Assembly: GCF_900115205.1 (NCBI RefSeq) | Contig: NZ_FOYQ01000001.1 | Span: 1,639,240-1,703,239 of the forward strand | Direction of reading: 5' to 3' | Origin: Robiginitalea myxolifaciens | GTDB lineage: Bacteria > Bacteroidota > Bacteroidia > Flavobacteriales > Flavobacteriaceae | DNA: 64,000 nt | Shown here: positions 15,901 to 26,370 of the stretch, piece by piece | Layout of the letters: the number at the start of each line of letters is the position of its first letter | How positions within the stretch are numbered: the first letter of the stretch is position 1 | The notes under the pieces: model-generated | Told to the model about the DNA's origin: nothing | What the model saw: only the letters and a program-made list of their open reading frames with translations | The model's database searches: none | Translations under genes and position numbers: made by a program

Positions 15901-17187
15901 TTACCCCTTAAGGGCCTGTGTCATTTTGGCCCGGATTTCCTCCAAACAAAGATTACCGATACTGCCTTGATGCGTATGTTTGGCATCTGTTACCGGCTTA
16001 TAGGTGCCGGCTGCAATGGCCTCGCCCATCTCCCGATAGGCATCGCGAAACGGCATGCCTTCCAATACGCGTTCATTCAGGGTGTCAACGCTGTACAGGT
16101 AGTCGTATTTAGGGTCTTTTAGAATGTCTATACGCACGCGAATTTCAGCTAAACTACTCGTTGCCATCTCGAGGCAGGACTTTAACTGTTCCACTGCAGG
16201 AAGTAATAATTCCTTGGTGAGTTGGAGATCGCGGTGATACCCACTGGTTAAATTGGTGGTCAGGAGGAATAATTGGTTGGGCAAACCTTGCAGGAGGTTA
16301 CATTTTCCGCGGATTAGTTCGAATATATCCGGGTTCTTCTTATGGGGCATGATACTGCTCCCTGTAGTCAGGTGGTCCGGGAAACTTATAAAGTCAAAGT
16401 TCTGGCTCATGTACAGGCAAATATCCATGGCAAACTTACCCAGGGTAGCTGCTACCGAAGCCATGGCGGTTGCCGTGGTTCGCTCTACCTTCCCACGGCC
16501 CATTTGGGCAGCGACAACATTGTATTTTAAGGTTTCGAATCCGAGGGCTTTCGTGGTCATTTCACGATCGATCGGGAAGGAGCTGCCATAACCTGCGGCG
16601 CTCCCCAGAGGATTCTGATCGGCAACACGCTCTGCTGCGTTCAGGAGGAAAACATCGTCGATCAGGCTTTCGGCATAGGCCGAAAACCAGAGGCCAAAGG
16701 AGGAAGGCATAGCAACCTGCAAATGCGTATACCCGGGTAACGGTACCGATTGATGTTCCTCAGCCAGCGTCATCAGCCGATTGAAAAGCCCTTCCACCTG
16801 CCCGCGAATGCCACTGAGTTCCGCCTTGAGGTATAATTGTAAGGCTACCAGAATCTGATCGTTTCGGGATCGGGCGGTATGGATTTTTTTCCCGGTATCT
16901 CCAAGCCGCTCGGTGAGCAGGTATTCAATTCGGGAATGCATATCCTCGAAGTCCGAACCAATAGTGAATTTCCCGGCGGTTACTTCCTCGGCCATTTCAT
17001 CCAGGGCCGTTATCAGCGATGTAGCTTCTTCCCCGGTGATGAGGCCTGCCTGCCCCAGCATTTGAGCATGTGCCCGGGAAGCCTGAATATCGTATTGGAC
17101 CAAAAGTAAATCCAGTTCCCGGTCCTGACCAACTGTAAACTGGTCTGTTTTTGCATCGGCCCCCTGGCCTTTGTCCCAAAGTTTCAT
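15901..17187 (-). CDS. argH: Argininosuccinate lyase
   Basis: Last step of arginine synthesis: argininosuccinate to arginine and fumarate. 428 aa of the fumarase/aspartase superfamily. The signature loop SSIMPHKKNPD with the catalytic Ser is at about residue 275; HTARSRNDQI and the GYTHLQVAMP segment with the conserved His are present. Slightly shorter than the usual 450-460 aa because the C-terminal region is compact. Ends the nine-gene arg operon, starting 4 bases after the M20 deacylase stop. Confidence 0.96.
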   Translation of the reverse strand: MKLWDKGQGADAKTDQFTVGQDRELDLLLVQYDIQASRAHAQMLGQAGLITGEEATSLITALDEMAEEVTAGKFTIGSDFEDMHSRIEYLLTERLGDTGKKIHTARSRNDQILVALQLYLKAELSGIRGQVEGLFNRLMTLAEEHQSVPLPGYTHLQVAMPSSFGLWFSAYAESLIDDVFLLNAAERVADQNPLGSAAGYGSSFPIDREMTTKALGFETLKYNVVAAQMGRGKVERTTATAMASVAATLGKFAMDICLYMSQNFDFISFPDHLTTGSSIMPHKKNPDIFELIRGKCNLLQGLPNQLFLLTTNLTSGYHRDLQLTKELLLPAVEQLKSCLEMATSSLAEIRVRIDILKDPKYDYLYSVDTLNERVLEGMPFRDAYREMGEAIAAGTYKPVTDAKHTHQGSIGNLCLEEIRAKMTQALKG

Positions 17188-17191
17188 AGTG

Positions 17192-18259
17192 CTATCGTAG
17201 GAATTTCTCGAGGATTTGCACGTAAAGCGCTATTCCCTCTTCGATTTCATAAAGGTAAATAAATTCGTCCGCGGAATGGGAGCGTGTACTGTCTCCAGGC
17301 CCTAATTTCAGGGAGTCGCAACTCAAGGCAGCCTGGTCCGAAAGGGTAGGAGAACCATAGGTGCTCCTGCCCAGGGAAAGGCCGGCTTTCACCAGGGCAT
17401 GATCGGCCGGGATGCTGGAGGAATTCAACCGGAGCGAACGCGGCTTAAGATCGCAGGGCGCTTCCTCCTGGAGGATCTCCGCTATTTCCGCATTGGAATA
17501 GCAATCGTTCACCCGCACATCGATTACCAGGTCTACCTTGGCAGGGACCACATTGTGCTGGCTTCCCCCTGCAATTTGGGTAACCGTAAGCTTTACCTCC
17601 CCAAGGACTTCGGAAACCTTTTCAAAGCGGTAGTTCTTAAACCACTCCAGCACCGGGATACAGTTATAGAGTGAATTATTGTCGTTAGGGTGTGCAGCGT
17701 GCGACGGCGTGCCGTGTACTTCCCCTTCGAAAATTACCAGGCCCTTTTCGGCTATGGCCAATTGCATTAGGGTGGGCTCCCCGACAATGGCCACATCGAT
17801 GGGAGGCAATACGCTGAGCATGCTGTTCAACCCGTTTGGCCCGGAGTTCTCCTCTTCTGCAGAGGCAATAATGACAATATTGTGACTCAGGTCTTTTTGC
17901 GGATACCAATAGGCAAAAGTAGCCAGCAAACTAACCAGGCAGCCTCCGGCATCATTGCTCCCCAGGCCAAAGAGTTTTCCGTCTGCCACATCCGGCGAAT
18001 AAGGATCCCGGGTGTAGGCCGAATTGGGCTTAACCGTATCGTGGTGGGAATTGAGCAGCAATAGAGGTTTGTCTTCCTGGTAATCCGCATTGAAGGCATA
18101 GATATTATGATCCCTTTGCTGATAGGGAATGCCTTCCGCTTCCAGCCAGGCAGCGATCAGGGAGGCGGTGCCCCCTTCTTCTCCCGAGAAGGATTGGGTG
18201 CGGATCAGGTCTTTCAGCAGCGATATCGCCCGTTCCGTGAGGTATTTAATGTCTTTCAT
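17192..18259 (-). CDS. M20-family deacylase (acyl-citrulline / acyl-ornithine deacetylase)
   Basis: Zinc-dependent M20 peptidase-fold deacylase, 355 aa. Metal ligands are visible in LLNSHHDTV (His and Asp region), GSNDAGG (bridging Asp) and SAEEENSG (catalytic Glu pair). In an operon with an acyl-ornithine carbamoyltransferase (argF') the expected substrate is N-succinyl- or N-acetyl-citrulline rather than acetylornithine, releasing citrulline for ArgG. Lies 26 bases after argB and 4 bases before argH. The acyl group cannot be read from this gene; see argF'. Confidence 0.88.
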   Translation of the reverse strand: MKDIKYLTERAISLLKDLIRTQSFSGEEGGTASLIAAWLEAEGIPYQQRDHNIYAFNADYQEDKPLLLLNSHHDTVKPNSAYTRDPYSPDVADGKLFGLGSNDAGGCLVSLLATFAYWYPQKDLSHNIVIIASAEEENSGPNGLNSMLSVLPPIDVAIVGEPTLMQLAIAEKGLVIFEGEVHGTPSHAAHPNDNNSLYNCIPVLEWFKNYRFEKVSEVLGEVKLTVTQIAGGSQHNVVPAKVDLVIDVRVNDCYSNAEIAEILQEEAPCDLKPRSLRLNSSSIPADHALVKAGLSLGRSTYGSPTLSDQAALSCDSLKLGPGDSTRSHSADEFIYLYEIEEGIALYVQILEKFLR

Positions 18260-18285
18260 AAGGCAGTTGTCTTGTAAAAGTTCCG

Positions 18286-19068
18286 CTATGCATGATGCAA
18301 ACGGGTGTGTTCGTTTTCAGTTGATTTCAGGATGGCTGGGGCCCCCACGCGTACCACCCGGACCCCGCGCTTCATGGCGTCGAAACCGTTGTGCAATTTG
18401 GGGAGCATCCCGGTAGCGATAATTCCATCGGCGGCGAGTTGGGCACACTGTGTCGGATTGAGCTCGGTCAGCAAGCTGCCGGGATCATTCACATCGGTAA
18501 GCACCCCGGGTTTGTCAAAGCAATAGATCAATTCACAGTCGTAGGAAGCACTGAGGGAAACCGCTATTTCCGCTGCAATGGTATCGGCATTGGTGTTGAG
18601 CATCTGGCCAGCCCCATCGTGGGTGAGGGCACAGCAGACAGGGACCAGCCCCATTGCTACGAAGGCTTTGAGCCGGTCGTGATTCACCCCTTGAACATCG
18701 CCGACCCATCCGAAATCGATTGTGCCAACCGGACGTTTTACAGCACGGATAATATCGGCATCGGCCCCGCTAAGCCCGAGGGCCGGGCAGCCCAGTGCCT
18801 GTAATTTGGCCACCAGGGATTTGTTACCCCAACCGGCATATACCATGAGCGCAATTTCGAGGGTTTCGGCATCTGTGATTCGGCGGCCATCGACCATTTT
18901 AGGCGGAATCCCGAGCCGATTTCCCAATTCAGAAGCCCGCGCACCACCCCCGTGGATGAGTATTTTCGGGCCTTCCAGTTGGGTGAATGCCCGGCAAAAT
19001 GCCTTAAGGCTTTCGTCTTGTTCCAGGAAAGCCCCGCCTATCTTAACTACCGTGAGTTTTTGATTCAT
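18286..19068 (-). CDS. argB: Acylglutamate kinase (ArgB)
   Basis: Phosphorylates N-acyl-glutamate, second step of arginine synthesis. 260 aa amino-acid-kinase fold: KIGGAFL at the N-terminus, LIHGGGARASELG glycine loop, a DGRRITDAE segment, the LNTNADTIAAEIA motif with catalytic Asp, and YCFDKPGVL. Shorter than proteobacterial enzymes and lacking the N-terminal helix that mediates arginine inhibition in hexameric forms, so feedback control here may not be at this enzyme (inference). Between argF' and the deacylase. Confidence 0.93.
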   Translation of the reverse strand: MNQKLTVVKIGGAFLEQDESLKAFCRAFTQLEGPKILIHGGGARASELGNRLGIPPKMVDGRRITDAETLEIALMVYAGWGNKSLVAKLQALGCPALGLSGADADIIRAVKRPVGTIDFGWVGDVQGVNHDRLKAFVAMGLVPVCCALTHDGAGQMLNTNADTIAAEIAVSLSASYDCELIYCFDKPGVLTDVNDPGSLLTELNPTQCAQLAADGIIATGMLPKLHNGFDAMKRGVRVVRVGAPAILKSTENEHTRLHHA

Positions 19069-19080
19069 CTCATTGTTGGT

Positions 19081-20049
19081 TTAGCGGAGCATATGGGACA
19101 GCGCCAGGCTTGCAGCCACCGTGCGATTTGCGGCCTGCTCCATAATCAGGGTTTGCGATCCGTCGAGCACGGCATCTTCCACAACAACATTGCGCCGGAC
19201 GGGTAAGCAGTGCATGAAGCGGGCATGGCCCAACTTATCAGCGGTCATCATCCAGGAAGGATCCTCGGTCAGTACTTTCCCGTAGTCGCTATAGCTACTC
19301 CAGTTCTTGACATAGACAAAGTCGGCATCCTTCAGGGCGGCTTGCTGGTCGTAAGTGGGTTTTAGTTCTCCCATGGCCCAGGACGATAATTCATATCCCT
19401 TGGGGTGGGTAACCACCAATTCCACGGGCATTCGCCGGAATATCCGCAGGAAGGAATTCGGTACGGCATGTGGAAGGGCTCTTGGGTGCGGAGCCCAGCT
19501 CAACACCACTTTGGGAACCTTCCCACCAGAGGGGATTGCTTGCCCCGCTTGGCCGCTGGCAATCTGGAACTGATCCACCGTCAGGGCATCGGCCAGTGCC
19601 TGCAACGGATGCGCGGTTGCGCTCTCCATATTCAAAACCGGGATTCCGGAATGTTCCATAAACCCCTTGAGGACCCGCTCCTGCAAATCGATTTCCCGAT
19701 CTTTCAGGCCGGGAAAGGCCCGGATTCCGATGAGGTCGGCGTATTGGGCTACTACTCCCGCCGCTTCCCGGATATGTTCGGCTGTCCCTCCATCCATGCG
19801 AACCCCATCTTCAAACTCCAGGTTCCATCCGTCAGAACCCACATTCATAACCATCACCTCCAGGCCCAGGTTGCGAGCCGCTTTCTGGGTACTGAGGCGG
19901 GTCCTGAGGCTGTTATTGAAAAATAACAGGCAAATCGTTTTCCCGGCACCCAGGTGTGAAAGGGAAATAGGGTCCTGAGCCAGGGCCCTACCGCGCTCCA
20001 GCCAATCCGGAAGGTCTGTTATATCGTCTGTGGTGAAATAGTGGTTCAT
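19081..20049 (-). CDS. argF': N-acyl-ornithine carbamoyltransferase, predicted succinyl-ornithine type
   Basis: Transfers a carbamoyl group to an N-acyl-ornithine, the Bacteroidota and Xanthomonas variant of ArgF. 322 aa with the carbamoyl-phosphate loop FNNSLRTR at about residues 44-51, an HCLPVRR motif near the C-terminus and a DGGTAEH segment. The residue separating acetyl- from succinyl-ornithine enzymes (Glu92 in Xanthomonas, Pro90 in Bacteroides fragilis) is Ala90 here; Ala at that place turned the Xanthomonas enzyme towards succinyl-ornithine in published mutants. So the substrate is probably N-succinyl-ornithine (inference). Sits between argD and argB in the operon. Confidence 0.9.
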   Translation of the reverse strand: MNHYFTTDDITDLPDWLERGRALAQDPISLSHLGAGKTICLLFFNNSLRTRLSTQKAARNLGLEVMVMNVGSDGWNLEFEDGVRMDGGTAEHIREAAGVVAQYADLIGIRAFPGLKDREIDLQERVLKGFMEHSGIPVLNMESATAHPLQALADALTVDQFQIASGQAGQAIPSGGKVPKVVLSWAPHPRALPHAVPNSFLRIFRRMPVELVVTHPKGYELSSWAMGELKPTYDQQAALKDADFVYVKNWSSYSDYGKVLTEDPSWMMTADKLGHARFMHCLPVRRNVVVEDAVLDGSQTLIMEQAANRTVAASLALSHMLR

Positions 20050-20082
20050 ATCTGGCTTATGTTTTTAAAAGCTTTGTTGCGG

Positions 20083-21210
20083 CTACCCCAACTCTTGCTG
20101 CAGGGCTTCAAATAAGAGGTCAAATTCGGCCGTTCCGATTCCCAGGGGCGGAAGTATTCGGAGGACCTTTTTATGCTTCGCACTTCCGGTAAATATGCGG
20201 TGCTCAAAAATCAGGCGTTTTCGTAAAGCGGCCACTTCAAAATCGAATTCCAGGCCGAGCATAAGCCCTTTACCCCGGATCTGGCGAATGCCGGGTAAGG
20301 CTGCAGCGCGCTCCCTGAAATACGCTTCCATACGGGCTGCATTTTCGATCAGTTTTTCTTTCTCGAGTGCCTCCAGGACACCCAGGGTAGCGGCACAGGC
20401 CAAATGATTTCCACCAAAGGTTGTCCCCAACATGCCGTGGGATGGCACAATTTCGGGGGCAATCAGTACCCCGCCAACCGGAAAGCCATTACCCATTCCT
20501 TTCGCCATACTGATGATCCCGGGTCGGGCATCGCTGTGCTGGAAGGCGAAAAATTTACCGCTGCGTCCAAATCCCGACTGTACTTCATCGGCGATTAGTA
20601 CAGCTTCGTATTCCCGGCACAAACGGGAAGCGGCCGTATAGAATTCGGGAGTAGCCATATCCAGGCCACCAACTCCCTGGATTCCTTCGAGGATCACCGC
20701 GCAGACGTCCCCGGACTGAAGCGCTGCTTCGAGCTTGTCGATTTGGTTCAGGGGCAGGAAAGTTACCTTGTGCCCTGCGTTTAGCGGAGCTACAATTTTT
20801 GGATTGTCTGTGGCCGCAACGGCTGCAGAAGTGCGCCCGTGAAAACTGTTTTCAAAGGCGATTACCTGATCCTTTCCCGTATGGAAGGAGGCCAGTTTCA
20901 GGGCATTTTCATTTGCCTCGGCCCCGGAATTACACAGGAATAGCTGGTGCTCCGGGAGTCCGGCTTGCCGGCCCAATTCCCGGGAGAGTTCCTCCTGCAA
21001 TGGATTCAGAACAGAATTGCTGTAAAAGGAGATGCGATCGAGCTGGTCTTTGATTCGGGCCACATAATCCGGGTGGCCGTGACCGATTGAGATTACGGCA
21101 TGTCCGCCGTAGAGGTCAAGATACTTTTGGCCTTCGGCATCGGTAACCCAGCAGCCGCTGGCAGCAACCGGGCAGATATCGTAAAGGGGATAAACGTCGA
21201 ACAGGGGCAT
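20083..21210 (-). CDS. argD: Acyl-ornithine aminotransferase (class III, PLP)
   Basis: PLP-dependent transamination of N-acyl-glutamate semialdehyde to N-acyl-ornithine. 375 aa. Class III features: LFLCNSGAEANENALKLA, the FHGRTSAAVAATDN segment, the LIADEVQSGFGRSG motif, and the PLP lysine in SMAKGMGNGFP at about residue 235. It starts 2 bases downstream of proC and is followed after 33 bases by argF'. Acetyl or succinyl substrate is not decided by these motifs. Confidence 0.94.
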   Translation of the reverse strand: MPLFDVYPLYDICPVAASGCWVTDAEGQKYLDLYGGHAVISIGHGHPDYVARIKDQLDRISFYSNSVLNPLQEELSRELGRQAGLPEHQLFLCNSGAEANENALKLASFHTGKDQVIAFENSFHGRTSAAVAATDNPKIVAPLNAGHKVTFLPLNQIDKLEAALQSGDVCAVILEGIQGVGGLDMATPEFYTAASRLCREYEAVLIADEVQSGFGRSGKFFAFQHSDARPGIISMAKGMGNGFPVGGVLIAPEIVPSHGMLGTTFGGNHLACAATLGVLEALEKEKLIENAARMEAYFRERAAALPGIRQIRGKGLMLGLEFDFEVAALRKRLIFEHRIFTGSAKHKKVLRILPPLGIGTAEFDLLFEALQQELG

Positions 21211-21212
21211 GG

Positions 21213-22007
21213 TTAACCTTTTCTGATTTGTGATATTTTATCGTAAGACGAAACAATCCCACGGATCAATGAAGAACTCAGGCCCTGGTGCTCCATTTCG
21301 TTGAGTCCTTCAATGGTACATCCCATGGGCGTCGTTACCCGGTCAATTTCGGCTTCGGGATGGCTTCCTGAACGGATGAGTAGTTCTGAAGCGCCCCTGC
21401 AGGTATGCATGGCGAGTTTCTGAGCTTCCTCTGCGTCGAAACCAAGTTGAATGGCCCCCTGGGTAGTGGCCCGGATGAGTCGCATCCAAAAGGCAATTCC
21501 ACTCGCACAGATTACGGTGGCTGCCTGCATGCGCGCCTCGGGAATAACCATGGAATGCCCCATTCGGTTAAAGATGGCCCCAGCCAGTTCCAGGCGTTTC
21601 TGCCCGGCGGTATTCGCACAGAGGCAGGTCATGGAATGCCCTACGGAGATAGCCGTATTGGGCATGGCTCGGATAATGTAACGGTCGCTGCCAATAAGTT
21701 GCTCGATCCGCTCAATGCTAAACCCGGTAATGGTCGAGATAATTACGTGATTATCGTGAAGCAAATCGGCAACCGATTCCAGGATTTGCTGGAAATGCCC
21801 AGGCTGGACGGCAAAGATCAGTATGTCCGAAGCGGCTACCGCAGCCCGGTTATCCGACCCAATATGGACGTTTCCGTATTCCTCAAAATGACTCAGGCTC
21901 GCTGTATTGCGGCGGGTTAAGTGCATGGTGGTGGCGCCTCCGCTATGCAGGATGCCTTCCGCTATTGAAAGGCCCAGATTTCCCGCTCCTATGATTGCTA
22001 TTTTCAT
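21213..22007 (-). CDS. proC: Pyrroline-5-carboxylate reductase
   Basis: Reduces pyrroline-5-carboxylate to proline with NAD(P)H. 264 aa: N-terminal Rossmann motif IGAGNLGLSIAEGI, the VQPGHF segment, the RAMPNTAISVGHSMT motif, and a C-terminal TTPMGCTIEGLNEME motif matching the family signature. It is embedded between argC and argD, so proline synthesis would be expressed together with arginine synthesis. Glutamate kinase and gamma-glutamyl-phosphate reductase for the standard proline route are not here. Confidence 0.94.
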   Translation of the reverse strand: MKIAIIGAGNLGLSIAEGILHSGGATTMHLTRRNTASLSHFEEYGNVHIGSDNRAAVAASDILIFAVQPGHFQQILESVADLLHDNHVIISTITGFSIERIEQLIGSDRYIIRAMPNTAISVGHSMTCLCANTAGQKRLELAGAIFNRMGHSMVIPEARMQAATVICASGIAFWMRLIRATTQGAIQLGFDAEEAQKLAMHTCRGASELLIRSGSHPEAEIDRVTTPMGCTIEGLNEMEHQGLSSSLIRGIVSSYDKISQIRKG

Positions 22008-22017
22008 GGTGTTGTTC

Positions 22018-22992
22018 TTAAAATGCGCTTCCCTTGAGCTTCAGGCCGGTGGGTTGTTCCAGTCCGAAAATCAGATTCATATTTTCTACCGCCTGACCAG
22101 AAGCACCCTTCAGGAGGTTGTCGATTACCGAGGTAATGAGTAAGTACCCGTTATGCAGATGTAAATGCAGGTGGGCATAGTTGGTGTTCACCACTTGTTT
22201 CAGGTTTACAGGAGCTGTTGAAAGTGCGGTAAACGCTGCGGATTCATAGTATTTCTGGTAGCGTTCCTGAGCTTCCTCCAGGCTCCCGCTGAACGCCGTA
22301 TAGGCGGTGGCAAAGATTCCCCTTGCGAAATTTCCACGGACCGGTAAAAACAGCAGCTCCCCGGTCTCGGGATCGAGTTGTTGTAAACTCTGATTGATCT
22401 CCCCCAGGTGTTGGTGGGTAAAGGGTTTATACCAGCTAACATTGTTATTACGCCAGCTAAAGTGGGTAGTGTCGGCAGGTGTTACACCGGCTCCGGTACT
22501 GCCCGTAACGGCGTTGATATGGATGGTTTGCTGCAGTTGGTTGCTTGCCGCAAGGGGAAGCAGAGCCAGTTGAATCGCTGTTGCAAAACATCCTGGATTC
22601 GCAATATACCGGGCCTGGGAAATGATCTCGCGCTGTAATTCAGGAAGACCATAGACAAACGTTTTCCCGTCCAGGGTGTTGGTTGCTGCGAGCCTGAAAT
22701 CGTTGCTGAGATCAATGATCTTCGTTTCCTTTGAAAATTGATTTTTGGACAGGAAATCCCTGGAATTACCATGCCCTAAACAAAGGAATACGACGTCGAT
22801 TTCGGGATCTATCTCGCCGGAGAATAGCATGTCGGTTTCCCCCAGCAAATCCGGGTGGGCACTATGCAGCGGTTTACCCGCTCTTGTGGTACTAAATACA
22901 AAGCCCAGGTCTGCCTCGGGATGATTTAAAATCAGGCGAATCAGTTCTCCACCGGTATATCCGGAACCTCCGATAATTCCAGCTTTTATCAT
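22018..22992 (-). CDS. argC: N-acyl-gamma-glutamyl-phosphate reductase
   Basis: Reduces N-acyl-glutamyl phosphate to the semialdehyde. 324 aa: N-terminal GGSGYTGGELIRLIL motif, catalytic Cys in ANPGCFATAIQLAL at about residue 137, and the TGSTGAGVTP segment. The start overlaps argG's stop by 4 bases (ATGA). A 10-base gap separates it from proC. Confidence 0.95.
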   Translation of the reverse strand: MIKAGIIGGSGYTGGELIRLILNHPEADLGFVFSTTRAGKPLHSAHPDLLGETDMLFSGEIDPEIDVVFLCLGHGNSRDFLSKNQFSKETKIIDLSNDFRLAATNTLDGKTFVYGLPELQREIISQARYIANPGCFATAIQLALLPLAASNQLQQTIHINAVTGSTGAGVTPADTTHFSWRNNNVSWYKPFTHQHLGEINQSLQQLDPETGELLFLPVRGNFARGIFATAYTAFSGSLEEAQERYQKYYESAAFTALSTAPVNLKQVVNTNYAHLHLHLHNGYLLITSVIDNLLKGASGQAVENMNLIFGLEQPTGLKLKGSAF

Positions 22993-24173
22993 TGGTTGTG
23001 AACTTGTTGGGCAATCCGGCCCGAGTTAGATAATATTTTGATAAATCCTTTGGCTTCTTCGGCACTCCACCCCTTATTCATTTCCCCGTAGCTGCCGAAT
23101 TTCGAATCCATCAGGTCGTTTTTAGAACGGATTCCCTGGAGCTCAAAACGATAAGGCAAAAGCTTCACCAGTACCTCCCCGCTCACGTGGCGTTGGGAAT
23201 CTGTCAGGAAGGCTTCAATATTCCGCATGACCTCGTCCAGGTACTGTCCTTCGTGCAACAACATGCCGTAGAAGCTGGCTTGTTGCTCTTTTTGAAATTG
23301 CTGCCACTTACTCAATGTATGTTTCTCCAGCAGGTGGTGTGCCTTGATGGTGATCAGGGCTGCCGCCGCTTCAAAACCAACCCGCCCTTTGATGCCGATA
23401 ATGGTATCTCCTACGTGGATGTCACGTCCGATACCGTAGGGACCGGCGAGGGCCTCCAGTTTTTGGATATTGGCCACGGGGGAATCACTTTCGCCATTGA
23501 GGGAAACGAGTTCGCCCTGCTCAAAACCCAGAACAATCTCCTGGGGTTCCACCGCGTTGGCGGTGGTGGGATAGGCGTGTTCGGGCAGGGCTTTTTCGGA
23601 CCCAAGGGTTTCCTCCCCGCCCACAGAAGTGCCCCATAAACCTTTATTGATCGAGTACTTGGCTTTTTCCCAGGCATATGGGATACCATTGGCCTGGAGG
23701 TATTCGATTTCCGCCTCTCGGGAAAGTTTTTTGTCCCGGATGGGGGTGATGATTTCGATATCGGGCGCCAGGGTTTGGAAGATCAGGTCAAAGCGTACCT
23801 GATCGTTCCCGGCTCCGGTGCTGCCATGGGCAATATGAGTGGCGCCAATGGATTTGGCATATGCGATGATCTCCAGGGCTTGTACGATACGCTCGGCGCT
23901 TACGGAGAGGGGGTAGGTATTGTTTCGCAGGACATTGCCGAAGATGAGATACTTAACCACTTTTTCATAGAAAGTGGAAACGGCGTCGATTGCCTTGTAG
24001 TCGGTTGCACCTAACTCCAGGGCCCGCGCCCGGATCCCTTCGAGTTCTTCGGTGTCAAATCCCCCGGTATTTACCGTTACGGCGTGAACTTCATAGCCTT
24101 CTTCTTTGGAGAGCCAGTGTGCGCAGTAGGAGGTATCCAGCCCACCACTGTAGGCCAAAACGAGTTTTTTCAT
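22989..24173 (-). CDS. argG: Argininosuccinate synthase
   Basis: Condenses citrulline and aspartate with ATP to argininosuccinate. 394 aa: LAYSGGLDTSYCAHWL P-loop at the N-terminus, the HGSTGAGNDQVRFD motif at about residues 115-128, and GRDIHVGDTIIG near residue 255. Overlaps both the GNAT gene upstream and argC downstream by 4 bases, so translation is coupled along the start of the operon. Confidence 0.96.
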   Translation of the reverse strand: MKKLVLAYSGGLDTSYCAHWLSKEEGYEVHAVTVNTGGFDTEELEGIRARALELGATDYKAIDAVSTFYEKVVKYLIFGNVLRNNTYPLSVSAERIVQALEIIAYAKSIGATHIAHGSTGAGNDQVRFDLIFQTLAPDIEIITPIRDKKLSREAEIEYLQANGIPYAWEKAKYSINKGLWGTSVGGEETLGSEKALPEHAYPTTANAVEPQEIVLGFEQGELVSLNGESDSPVANIQKLEALAGPYGIGRDIHVGDTIIGIKGRVGFEAAAALITIKAHHLLEKHTLSKWQQFQKEQQASFYGMLLHEGQYLDEVMRNIEAFLTDSQRHVSGEVLVKLLPYRFELQGIRSKNDLMDSKFGSYGEMNKGWSAEEAKGFIKILSNSGRIAQQVHNQ

Positions 24174-24784
24174 GATTTTTTCTTTTTTAAGAAGAGCGAT
24201 TCCTTGATGGATTTGAGCCGCTCAAAAGATTTTCGATCGATATTTTTATCCTGCTTTTTAGGATCCGAAGGGTCGTATAGCATGCCGGTACACAGACACA
24301 TTTTACGCTCGGTCCGTGTGAGGATGTCGAAGTTCTTGCAGGTCTGGCAACCTTTCCAGAATTCCGGGTCGTCGGTGAGTTCGGAAAAGGTTACGGGTTG
24401 ATATCCCAGTTCGTAATTCATTTTCATTACGGCAAGCCCGGTGGTAATGCCGAATATTTTGGCGTCCGGGAACTTTTTCCGGCTCAAATCAAAAATGGAC
24501 TTCTTGATTTTTTTGGCCAGTCCCTGTTTACGGTAGTCCGGATGCACGATCAGGCCGGAGTTGGCCACGTATTTCTGGTGCCCCCAGACTTCGATATAGC
24601 AGAACCCGGCAAAGCGGTCCCCATCCAGGGCAATAACCCCATTGCCATTTTGGATCCGCTTAATGATGTATTCCGGGGTGCGTTTGGCAATTCCGGTTCC
24701 GCGAACTTTGGCCGATTCCGCCAGGGTATCGCAAATAACCTGGGCGTACTTAATATGTGATGCATCAGCAATTAGAATGTCCAT
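24170..24784 (-). CDS. GNAT acyltransferase with C-terminal Cys motif; first gene of the arg operon
   Basis: 204-residue GNAT-fold protein. Motif A with the acyl-CoA pyrophosphate loop is visible as HPDYRKQGLAKKI at about residues 82-94, and a Tyr in MNYELGYQP at motif B. After the fold come CQTC (about residues 143-146), CLC about 15 residues later, then a Lys-rich charged tail, suggesting a metal site. No standard acylglutamate synthase (argA or argJ) is seen in the operon, so as first gene it is a good candidate to make N-succinyl- or N-acetyl-glutamate. This is inference from position. Starts 90 bases after the Arg-rich leader frame. Confidence 0.82.
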   Translation of the reverse strand: MDILIADASHIKYAQVICDTLAESAKVRGTGIAKRTPEYIIKRIQNGNGVIALDGDRFAGFCYIEVWGHQKYVANSGLIVHPDYRKQGLAKKIKKSIFDLSRKKFPDAKIFGITTGLAVMKMNYELGYQPVTFSELTDDPEFWKGCQTCKNFDILTRTERKMCLCTGMLYDPSDPKKQDKNIDRKSFERLKSIKESLFLKKKKS

Positions 24785-24802: not shown

Positions 24803-24873
24803 GCAAAATGTGATGTAAAGAAGAGATCGAGAGGGGAATTGGACGCACCTAATTCCAAGACATAAGAACACCC
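24803..24873 (-). promoter_or_regulatory. Putative attenuator region between leader frame and arg operon
   Basis: RNA after the leader stop. A CCC-GUAA-GGG hairpin holds the leader's own stop codon in its loop. A GGAATT/AATTCC hairpin (24835-24856) has a loop containing GGUGCGUC (24842-24849), which could instead pair over 8 positions, two of them G-U, with GGCGCGCC (24888-24895) just ahead of the Arg run. Bases 24803-24843 read as RNA hold 15 C and only 2 G, as expected for a Rho loading site. No U-run intrinsic terminator is visible. Function is inferred. Confidence 0.45.
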
Positions 24874-24954
24874 TTACGGGCGGCGGCGGCGCGCCTCGGG
24901 CAAGCGTACCGGACGGGGCCGGACTAATACAGCGATATGAAGTTTGTCGCTCAT
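24874..24954 (-). CDS. Arginine-rich leader peptide of the arg operon (26 aa)
   Basis: Short frame of 26 codons plus TAA: begins MSDKLHIAVLV, has Arg at 12, 14 and 17, and ends EARRRRP with four consecutive CGC codons at 22-25. Seven of 26 residues are Arg. It starts 7 bases after an exact -7 promoter box and stops 89 bases before the GNAT start of a complete arginine operon. This is the layout of amino-acid attenuation leaders (trp, his, ilv types), with arginine as the sensed residue: a ribosome stalling on the Arg run when Arg-tRNA is scarce would change downstream RNA folding or Rho access. Role inferred; frame and codons seen directly. Confidence 0.72.
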   Translation of the reverse strand: MSDKLHIAVLVRPRPVRLPEARRRRP

Positions 24955-24961
24955 GGAATTC

Positions 24962-24969
24962 CAAATGTA
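24962..24969 (-). promoter_or_regulatory. -7 box of the arg operon / leader promoter
   Basis: Minus-strand TACATTTG matches TAnnTTTG exactly. It ends 7 bases before the leader ATG, so the transcript would begin at or just before that codon. A perfect TGGAATTCCA palindrome (24954-24963) overlaps the start site and could be an operator or a structured 5' end. No good -33 TTG was found. It lies 12 bases after the stop of the upstream mannosyltransferase gene. Confidence 0.6.
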
Positions 24970-24981
24970 ATAACAAAATCC

Positions 24982-26370
24982 CTAAACCTGGGGGTTTTGC
25001 GTTTCATTTTTAACAAATGTCACAAATTCCCGGCGGTTTCTGATGATTTCATAAATCAACATACCAAAGACAGGCAAGTATTCGATCCACAGCCATAGCG
25101 TAGCTTCTTCCACCTGCGTTCCCGAGTAGGCGGTATAGGAAATCATCACCAGTAAGGACCACAACAATACAAAGCGAAAACGGGTAAACAGGGAAAGGAT
25201 CAGCGGCAGGATGAGGTACCAGGGATGAACCACGGCACTGCTGAAATAATAGATAGCCAGCACGGCAAGGGCACCCGAGAACCAGGTTTTTAACTGGCGC
25301 ATCCTCGGGTGGAAGGTGAGGACAATACAGCTTCCCGCGGTAATCCAGGGGACGATTTCTCCGTACCGTGCAATGAATTCCCATGGCTTCTCTCCCTGGC
25401 GTTCGGCAAACCATTCAAAGACCCGGTAGATCCCCGCATTAAATTCAAAATTGGCGAACCACAATTTCAGGGTAGCCGCATAGTGTTCGGGGAATGCTGC
25501 AAAGTACAAAGGGTAAAGCAACCCCAGCAGGCATAGTCCTGTAATCAAATAGAATCCGACGGCTCGCTTGAAACCCAGTAGGGGTAGCATAAGCGGAAGG
25601 AGCATCAGGGGAATCAGTTTCAGGGCAATGGAAAGGGCAAAAGGAATCGCGGCCAGGACCCACCCAAAACGATGCAGCACAAACAGTGCCAGCACCAGGA
25701 AAAATCCCATGACACCTTCAAAATGTAAATTTCCGGTAAGCTCTATGATGACCAGTGGATTCAGGAAGTACCAGAAGATCATCCAGGACGCCTTATTCAG
25801 CCGGAACAACAAACGCCTTCCAAAGTACAGTAGCCCGATATCGGCGGCCAGAATGAGCAGGCGCATGGCCACAATACTACCCATAACGGTCTTTCCACCC
25901 AGCCAGGTACAAAACGCAAAAAGATATTGATTAAAGGGCGGGTAGTTGCTGTAGTTGCGGGCGCTTAACTCCCCCATACCCTGATACAGGGTTTCGGCTA
26001 CCGGGGCCAGGCTTTCGGGGATCCCCTGGGCCATTATCCCATCAGGAGTGTAGGCGTAGGGATTTAGCCCCGAGTTAAGCAGGATTCCATCCCAGATAAA
26101 ACGATAAAAATCCTGGGACAAATTCGGTTCTGCCATCCAGAAGACCAGACGGAATAAGATTCCGGCAACCACCAGGAAGCGGAAATTCCATTTTTCGAAT
26201 TGGATAAGCTTATAGCAAAGAAAGAACAGGGCCCCAAAGAGCGTAAGCAGTTTCCAGGTATCGCTGCGAACCAGGTTGTGCGCAAACGTTCCATAGAACA
26301 GCAGGCTCAGGAGCAAGAGCAGAATGGAAATCCGGTGCAGGTTCCAGAAGGTCACCAGGGCCCGGGCCAT
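24982..26370 (-). CDS. Polytopic membrane glycosyltransferase (GT-C, mannosyltransferase-like)
   Basis: 462-residue protein with about 11-12 membrane segments, GT-C type, predicted to use a polyprenol-phosphate sugar in the periplasm. The first outer loop carries the acidic motif after helix 3 (SQDFYRFIWDGILLNSGLNP, about residues 95-114), typical of GT-C/GT87-like mannosyltransferases, followed by SNYPPFNQYLF. It follows a CslA-like synthase and a polyprenol-phosphate sugar synthase on the same strand. That order suggests the latter makes its donor. Sugar identity is inferred. Its stop lies only 12 bases from the arg leader promoter. Confidence 0.78.
   Translation of the reverse strand: MARALVTFWNLHRISILLLLLSLLFYGTFAHNLVRSDTWKLLTLFGALFFLCYKLIQFEKWNFRFLVVAGILFRLVFWMAEPNLSQDFYRFIWDGILLNSGLNPYAYTPDGIMAQGIPESLAPVAETLYQGMGELSARNYSNYPPFNQYLFAFCTWLGGKTVMGSIVAMRLLILAADIGLLYFGRRLLFRLNKASWMIFWYFLNPLVIIELTGNLHFEGVMGFFLVLALFVLHRFGWVLAAIPFALSIALKLIPLMLLPLMLPLLGFKRAVGFYLITGLCLLGLLYPLYFAAFPEHYAATLKLWFANFEFNAGIYRVFEWFAERQGEKPWEFIARYGEIVPWITAGSCIVLTFHPRMRQLKTWFSGALAVLAIYYFSSAVVHPWYLILPLILSLFTRFRFVLLWSLLVMISYTAYSGTQVEEATLWLWIEYLPVFGMLIYEIIRNRREFVTFVKNETQNPQV

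Follow-up and report, generated by a model that had tools for sequence, protein, structure and literature searches.

Leader ORFs rich in codons for the end product precede biosynthetic operons in the trp, his and leu attenuators, but arginine is, to our knowledge, missing from the textbook list of biosynthetic operons under leader-peptide control. Two other kinds of control have been associated with arginine genes. ArgR is an arginine-dependent repressor of arg genes, and the T-box reads tRNA directly, without a leader ORF.

Several described leaders bear on arginine. In the Salmonella speF leader, a pair of adjacent Arg codons in an upstream ORF (orf34) senses arginine, and the output passes through Rho and RNase G and not through a plain intrinsic terminator (PMC6386406). 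However, speF encodes ornithine decarboxylase and not a step of arginine synthesis, and the part of that paper drawn on here describes no hairpin pair like the one reported below (P1 and P2). The carA leader peptide of Pseudomonas aeruginosa precedes a gene that feeds arginine synthesis, as the present leader does, but the portion of PMC4997734 used here discusses a possible pyrimidine attenuation and assigns arginine an effect at the transcriptional level. T-boxes of arginine genes in other bacteria likewise sense arginine supply at the RNA level (PMC1262725, in part); the leader described here differs from them in having an ORF and in matching no Rfam family. In its relevant part, the same 2005 survey, of Actinobacteria, did not find a conserved RNA structure before arginine operons. 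Within the Flavobacteriaceae, 'strong clues' that amino-acid operons are attenuated through leader peptides have been described in Flavobacterium psychrophilum (PMC9723704); section 19 of that paper does not name arginine, the one use of the word in its main text concerns cyanophycin, and an arg case may be listed in its supplement. Leader-peptide control is a known kind of regulation, and among the papers listed from the open-access literature, with subscription journals mostly outside our scope, we recognised no leader of arginine biosynthesis in Bacteroidota.

Here we describe an Arg-rich leader ORF, followed by two predicted hairpins, before the arginine operon of Robiginitalea myxolifaciens and most of its relatives. 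We put the probability that a ribosome-read arginine sensor controls this operon at roughly 0.6. If this is true, a large environmental bacterial family uses such a sensor in place of the ArgR repressor of related families, and the conserved P1-P2 arrangement without a strong terminator would represent a different route from ribosome position to gene control. The his leader provides a ready control in the same cells, and the arg leader offers specific sites to mutate.

The arg operon and its leader in R. myxolifaciens

The original prediction, made from the window (the whole stretch of 64,000 nucleotides that was analysed), placed an Arg-rich frame of 26 codons between an exact TAnnTTTG box and a nine-gene arg operon. 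Re-reading of the sequence reproduced the frame exactly, with seven Arg residues at codons 12, 14, 17 and 22-25 and with Pro and the stop codon after the terminal run; the box is present upstream, and all nine genes, from the GNAT gene to argH, could be assigned (Table 1). The curated cut-offs were reached by argG, argC, proC, argB and argH, and the remaining operon genes are best hits below their cut-offs. Since neither argA nor argJ is among the nine operon genes, the GNAT may be the missing N-acetylglutamate synthase. Separately, its cysteines C146, C149, C163 and C165 are invariant in nine aligned relatives.

Table 1 Features of the arg leader and operon in the window.
Feature	Coordinates	Strand	Remarks
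Promoter -7 box TACATTTG	24962..24969	-	exact TAnnTTTG; read directly
Arg-rich leader ORF MSDKLHIAVLVRPRPVRLPEARRRRP, then stop	24874..24954	-	26 codons + TAA; read directly
P0 hairpin, CCGG/CCGG	24909..24922	-	inside the ORF, 5' of the Arg run; only 4 pairs in R. myxolifaciens, tentative there
Arg run, CGC x4 (codons 22-25)	24880..24891	-	followed by CCG, TAA; overlaps 5' side of P1
P1 hairpin, CGCCC-GUAA-GGGUG	24869..24882	-	leader stop codon in loop
P2 hairpin, GGAAUU-A-GG-UGCGU-CC-AAUUCC	24835..24856	-	bulged A; pentaloop UGNGY
GNAT N-acetyltransferase, first gene	24170..24784	-	homologues in 98/149 Flavobacteriaceae genomes
argG, argC, proC, argD-type transaminase, N-acetylornithine carbamoyltransferase, argB, ArgE/DapE-type deacylase, argH	15901..24173	-	

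The leader stop codon lies 89 bases before the GNAT gene. Given the position of -12 to -5 for the box (PMC9723704, in the part used here), transcription would start ~3 bases 5' of the leader ATG. The RNA of the window is not unusually stable by itself (z 0.65; 156 of 200 shuffled versions are equally stable or more so); its structure becomes visible only through comparison. Just 5' of the arg promoter, an 11-pair hairpin (24974..24999) overlaps the 3' end of a mannosyltransferase-like gene (24982..26370, minus strand), of which it is possibly the terminator; the scan flagged it on the plus strand, and the stem reads on both strands.

Conservation of the leader frame

Upstream DNA was read for 90 of the 98 GNAT matches, the eight omitted being among the lower-scoring, and for 80 named records (more than 80 matched), the closest of which, among the matches listed, was Robiginitalea sp. 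SC105 with 86% GNAT identity. The resulting 170 loci gave 161 distinct upstream regions, among which near-duplicates may remain. The leader module, defined as P1 plus P2 by pattern, was found in 155 of these 161 GNAT-argG upstream regions of Flavobacteriaceae and is absent from six (L028, L029, L031, L041, L090 and L232), three of which (L028, L031 and L041) nevertheless end in RRP-stop by eye. Conservation of a frame with clustered Arg codons and otherwise varying residues, the comparison by which the original prediction was to be judged, is thus borne out in 155/161 distinct loci. By a separate measure, an ORF with at least four Arg in its last 12 codons occurs within 300 bases before GNAT in 127/161 regions, whereas dinucleotide shuffles predict 2.2.

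All 155 module loci keep the Arg frame open over 22 codons or more, while the other two frames are open in 42/155 and 62/155. A start codon falls within codons -36 to -18 in 154/155 (ATG 104, TTG 33, GTG 17). Across these loci the Arg codons cluster at the 3' end of the leader and the remaining residues vary; the last residues are RRRP in 92/155 and PRRP in 22/155, with smaller classes making up the rest. For finer counts we used alignment A1, which holds 83 of the 90 read loci (the seven without an exact core were excluded). At codons -12 to -2 before P1, a range that omits the two CGN anchor codons, the 83 leaders carry on average 2.23 Arg codons in frame; the other frames average 0.59 and 0.45, and base shuffles 0.71. 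The original prediction put the putative ribosome stall at codons 22-25; in many relatives Arg is also present 4-8 codons before P1 (17-41% per position). The anchor codons -1 and 0 encode Arg in 94% and 100% of the 83 leaders, figures for which the anchor pattern itself selects; the counts of the P2 core given below are likewise conditioned on the search patterns.

Substitutions between 26 non-overlapping close pairs numbered 65, 55 and 105 at codon positions 1, 2 and 3, as raw counts that include P0 pairing. The changed codons were nonsynonymous in 105 cases and synonymous in 65, suggesting that the leader peptide itself is little conserved. With the anchor pair omitted, CGC and CGU account for 142/166 leader Arg codons, as against 179/644 in the GNAT genes of the same named loci; these two codons are therefore favoured in leaders, a bias part of which may stem from RNA structure.

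Of the 109 single-leader relatives, 88 have TAnnTTT no more than 45 bases from the leader start, 65 of these at a distance of 15 or 16; it lies 12-17 bases before the start in 76/109, and the full TAnnTTTG is present in 43/109. A further Arg-rich ORF upstream was detected in 45/155 loci, compared to 1.3 expected from shuffles; a few of the 45 may be chance. It starts ~190-290 bases before P1 and is typically like MKNLKNKIRCSTPGLPVRNRRRF. In these tandem loci the box precedes the first ORF (TAnnTTT in 37/45, TAnnTTTG in 16/45), and TAnnTTTG is found before the second ORF in only 1/45. The second ORF starts with TTG or GTG in 38/45, and ATG is the start in 97 of the other 110 loci, which have no tandem ORF.

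Predicted hairpins of the leader RNA

Comparison of the loci points to two hairpins that overlap the Arg run or lie behind it. The stop-codon hairpin P1 and the arg-specific P2, both predicted from sequence, are new features that the original prediction had not seen. A P1 stem of at least four pairs can be drawn in 153/155 loci, and the stop codon overlaps its loop in 140/155; in the 15 loci where the stop lies at least three codons later, 13 still have a P1 stem of at least four pairs. Two-sided changes affect 1/5 P1 pairs, in 2/83 sequences, which is slim covariation, and the best support for P1 is therefore the persistence of the stem. L020 carries the variant GCGCAC-GUUU-GUGCGC. In this locus and in L022, L048 and L233 the stop is outside the loop, the stem is kept with altered letters and the reading frame continues past it; only three P1 pairs are left in L024 and L252.

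P2 has the core GG-UGNGY-CC, whose inner pairs are GG/CC in 153/155 loci and GA/UC in two (L040 and L085). Two-sided changes were observed in 6/8 predicted P2 pairs in the 83 sequences, the lower stem being the part that covaries. Taken together, the P1 and P2 cells of the alignment are paired in 92.1% of cases compared to 86.1% after shuffling, with 55 two-sided changes compared to 17, nearly all of them in P2. The distance from the start of P1 to the P2 core is 31-36 bases in 155/155 loci, and that from P2 to GNAT is 56-253 bases. A third hairpin, P0, precedes the Arg run; P0 stems of at least six pairs occur in 76/155 relatives, compared to a mean of 30 and a maximum of 41 in shuffles.

A covariance model of the hairpins returned one strong site per genome in 12/12 hand-picked genomes, always the arg leader, with all other sites at E 0.075 or worse; a role of P2 as a general attenuation module was rejected on this ground. 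In the phylum sample, 26/395 genomes match at E ≤0.01. Sixteen matches fall below 1e-7, all in Flavobacteriaceae. The 11 weaker matches (three in Flavobacteriaceae, one alongside a strong match in the same genome) show no P2 core where they match, and P2 outside Flavobacteriaceae was accordingly rejected. The pattern TAGGTGNGTCC occurs twice in the R. myxolifaciens genome (a control pattern occurs four times), and the other copy is without a hairpin by eye. No second P2 core was found within 500 bases in the first 90 loci. At the gathering score, Rfam reported one tRNA in the whole window and nothing on the leader, and none of six arg-leader loci searched up to E 1 was matched.

Terminators and the his-leader control

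The his leaders of Flavobacteriaceae served as a comparison, since they too place a short ORF rich in product codons (3-6 His) 5' of a biosynthetic operon. Thirty loci were fetched from the 33 matching of 41 Flavobacteriaceae genomes; in R. myxolifaciens (L175) the leader reads MKTTHTHHHLISHAQAR, and behind it lie a hairpin and a T run. The terminator screen, a hairpin with at least 6 T in 8, fired in 30/30 his leaders (200 bases) and in 13/155 arg leaders from P1 to GNAT, or 20/155 when the leader ORF was included. The arg leaders thus mostly have no hairpin and U run as strong as those of the his leaders but instead conserve a stop-codon hairpin and P2. The likeness to trp and his attenuation on which the original prediction relied is not supported in that form, and the 30/30 and 13/155 make textbook attenuation unlikely here.

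No antiterminator was found. The one candidate examined, pairing of P1 UCGCC with P2 GGUGA, is uninformative because its core pairs hardly vary; the GA/UC variants of the core in L040 and L085 would count against it. Other roles for P2 were considered and set aside. As an intrinsic terminator it lacks the T run, the next 8 bases holding 2.2 T on average and at least six in 2/155. A block of GNAT translation initiation is unlikely with its variable distance to that gene. A Shine-Dalgarno-like reading of AGGUG, which appeals to the anti-Shine-Dalgarno sequence, fits less well with the GAUG cores that L040 and L085 carry. Separately, a Rho rut site is not supported by composition, the last 35 bases before GNAT having C 0.14 and G 0.06 compared to C 0.17 and G 0.11 before hisG.

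Proposed mechanism and alternative explanations

We consider it very probable that the leader senses the charging of Arg-tRNA. The transcript would be nearly leaderless, its ORF beginning just after the promoter box. With scarce Arg-tRNA the ribosome would stall within the Arg cluster, next to P1 or in it; with ample Arg-tRNA it would reach the stop codon inside P1 and depart, and P1 would close next to P2. The readout of these two P1-P2 states would not be a strong intrinsic terminator; Rho-dependent termination or RNase cleavage within the ~90 bases before GNAT is the likeliest candidate, and a shortage of arginine would give high operon expression. That P1 is the part controlled by the ribosome seems slightly better than an even bet; the sign of the switch is uncertain, since P1 would stay unobstructed if the ribosome stalled at the first Arg codons of the leader. 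We rate a factor-dependent rather than intrinsic output at just under even odds, and favour an end by Rho or RNase over a translation block because a strong terminator is mostly absent and the distance from P2 to GNAT is flexible.

In the most serious alternative, which we nevertheless consider unlikely, plain transcription attenuation, P1 and the U-rich spacer behind it would act as a weak intrinsic terminator whose folding is prevented by a stalled ribosome. P1 is GC-rich, the 12 bases after it are 54% T, a laxer rule (at least 5 T in 8) accepts it in 84/155 loci, the terminator scan flags it as terminator-like in R. myxolifaciens, and all 13 arg loci that pass the strict screen do so through P1 and the spacer. 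However, 6 T in 8 is reached by only 34/155 and 7 T by 4/155, where the his leaders score 30/30 at 6 T, and P2, the best conserved part, is given no role. A ribosome that has arrived at the stop codon would sit on P1 as well; finished translation would then prevent the timely folding of P1 and make it a poor terminator for the logic of attenuation. In another reading P1-P2 is a putative binding site for some trans factor, such as a protein, and the Arg codons are a by-product of conserved RNA letters, CGNCGCC. The letters of P2 (bulged A, GG/CC, UGNGY) are conserved beyond the need of a simple stem, the element is arg-specific, and the anchor CGC is invariant in A1. This reading is less likely still, because in-frame Arg enrichment extends upstream of P1 (2.23 compared to 0.45-0.59), the leaders retain an open frame, a start codon and third-position variation, and 45/155 loci have a further Arg-rich ORF upstream, while none of the first 90 loci has a second P2 core in 500 bases.

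The fungal arginine attenuator peptide and TnaC are leaders that act by nascent-peptide arrest, and a C-terminal Pro slows release. Arrest by free arginine in this manner would fit the Pro-stop ending of most leaders, but appears improbable to us: in the 155 module loci no conserved arrest peptide was found, Arg and the terminal Pro alone recurring, leaders with a later stop end otherwise (SVRV, LGV), and the CC of the Pro codon is required for P1 anyway. Finally, short ORFs are frequent, and the RNA of the window by itself is unremarkable in stability, as a functionless chance ORF would predict; the excess of Arg-rich ORFs over shuffles and the covariation of P1 and P2 contradict this explanation, to which we assign a negligible probability.

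ArgR and arginine leaders in other Bacteroidota

Control by ArgR differs from the proposed sensor in being protein-based. No match to ArgR (PF01316) was found in the R. myxolifaciens genome. In the phylum sample ArgR is present in 138/395 genomes, none of them Flavobacteriaceae, and GNAT in 155/390 genomes of nearly the same sample. The two occur together in only five genomes, compared to 55 expected if independent, a difference for which we claim no significance because the lineages are not independent. In four of the five (families f11 and f12) the ArgR and GNAT matches share a strand and are separated by 313-350 bases. In the three genomes read from these two families argR directly precedes GNAT, its ORF ending 28-82 bases before the assumed GNAT start.

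Arg-rich ORFs before GNAT were also detected in families without ArgR in the sample: 8/8 in f24, 5/6 in f8, 3/5 in f3 and 3/8 in f4, with 0.07-0.12 expected in each. The single cases in f5 (1/2) and f12 (1/1) are both doubtful. None was found in f2 (0/3), f9 (0/2), f10 (0/3), f11 (0/2), f25 (0/3), f23 (0/2) or eight single-genome families (0/1 each), and within the Flavobacteriaceae such a leader was found before GNAT in 0/7 inspected genomes of two genera, g128 and g155. Absence of ArgR is thus not always accompanied by such a leader. We tentatively suggest, at somewhat less than even odds, that several ArgR-less Bacteroidota families control arginine synthesis through a leader that lacks a strong terminator, with the termination of translation as the switch: a stop codon placed in a stem would record completion of the Arg run, with P2, a new RNA motif, as the readout in Flavobacteriaceae and tandem leaders in many genera.

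By eye, the stop codons of the f24, f8, f3 and f4 leaders are often in or beside stems of other design. In f4 (L273, L274, L276, L323, L324 and L325) the stop codon lies, again by eye, inside a long covarying helix, CUGAYAGG/CCURUCAG. In f8 and f10 (L282, L283, L285, L286, L289 and L290) a hairpin CC-UAYGY-GG, likewise seen by eye, follows the leader region, with a pentaloop reminiscent of the UGNGY of P2.
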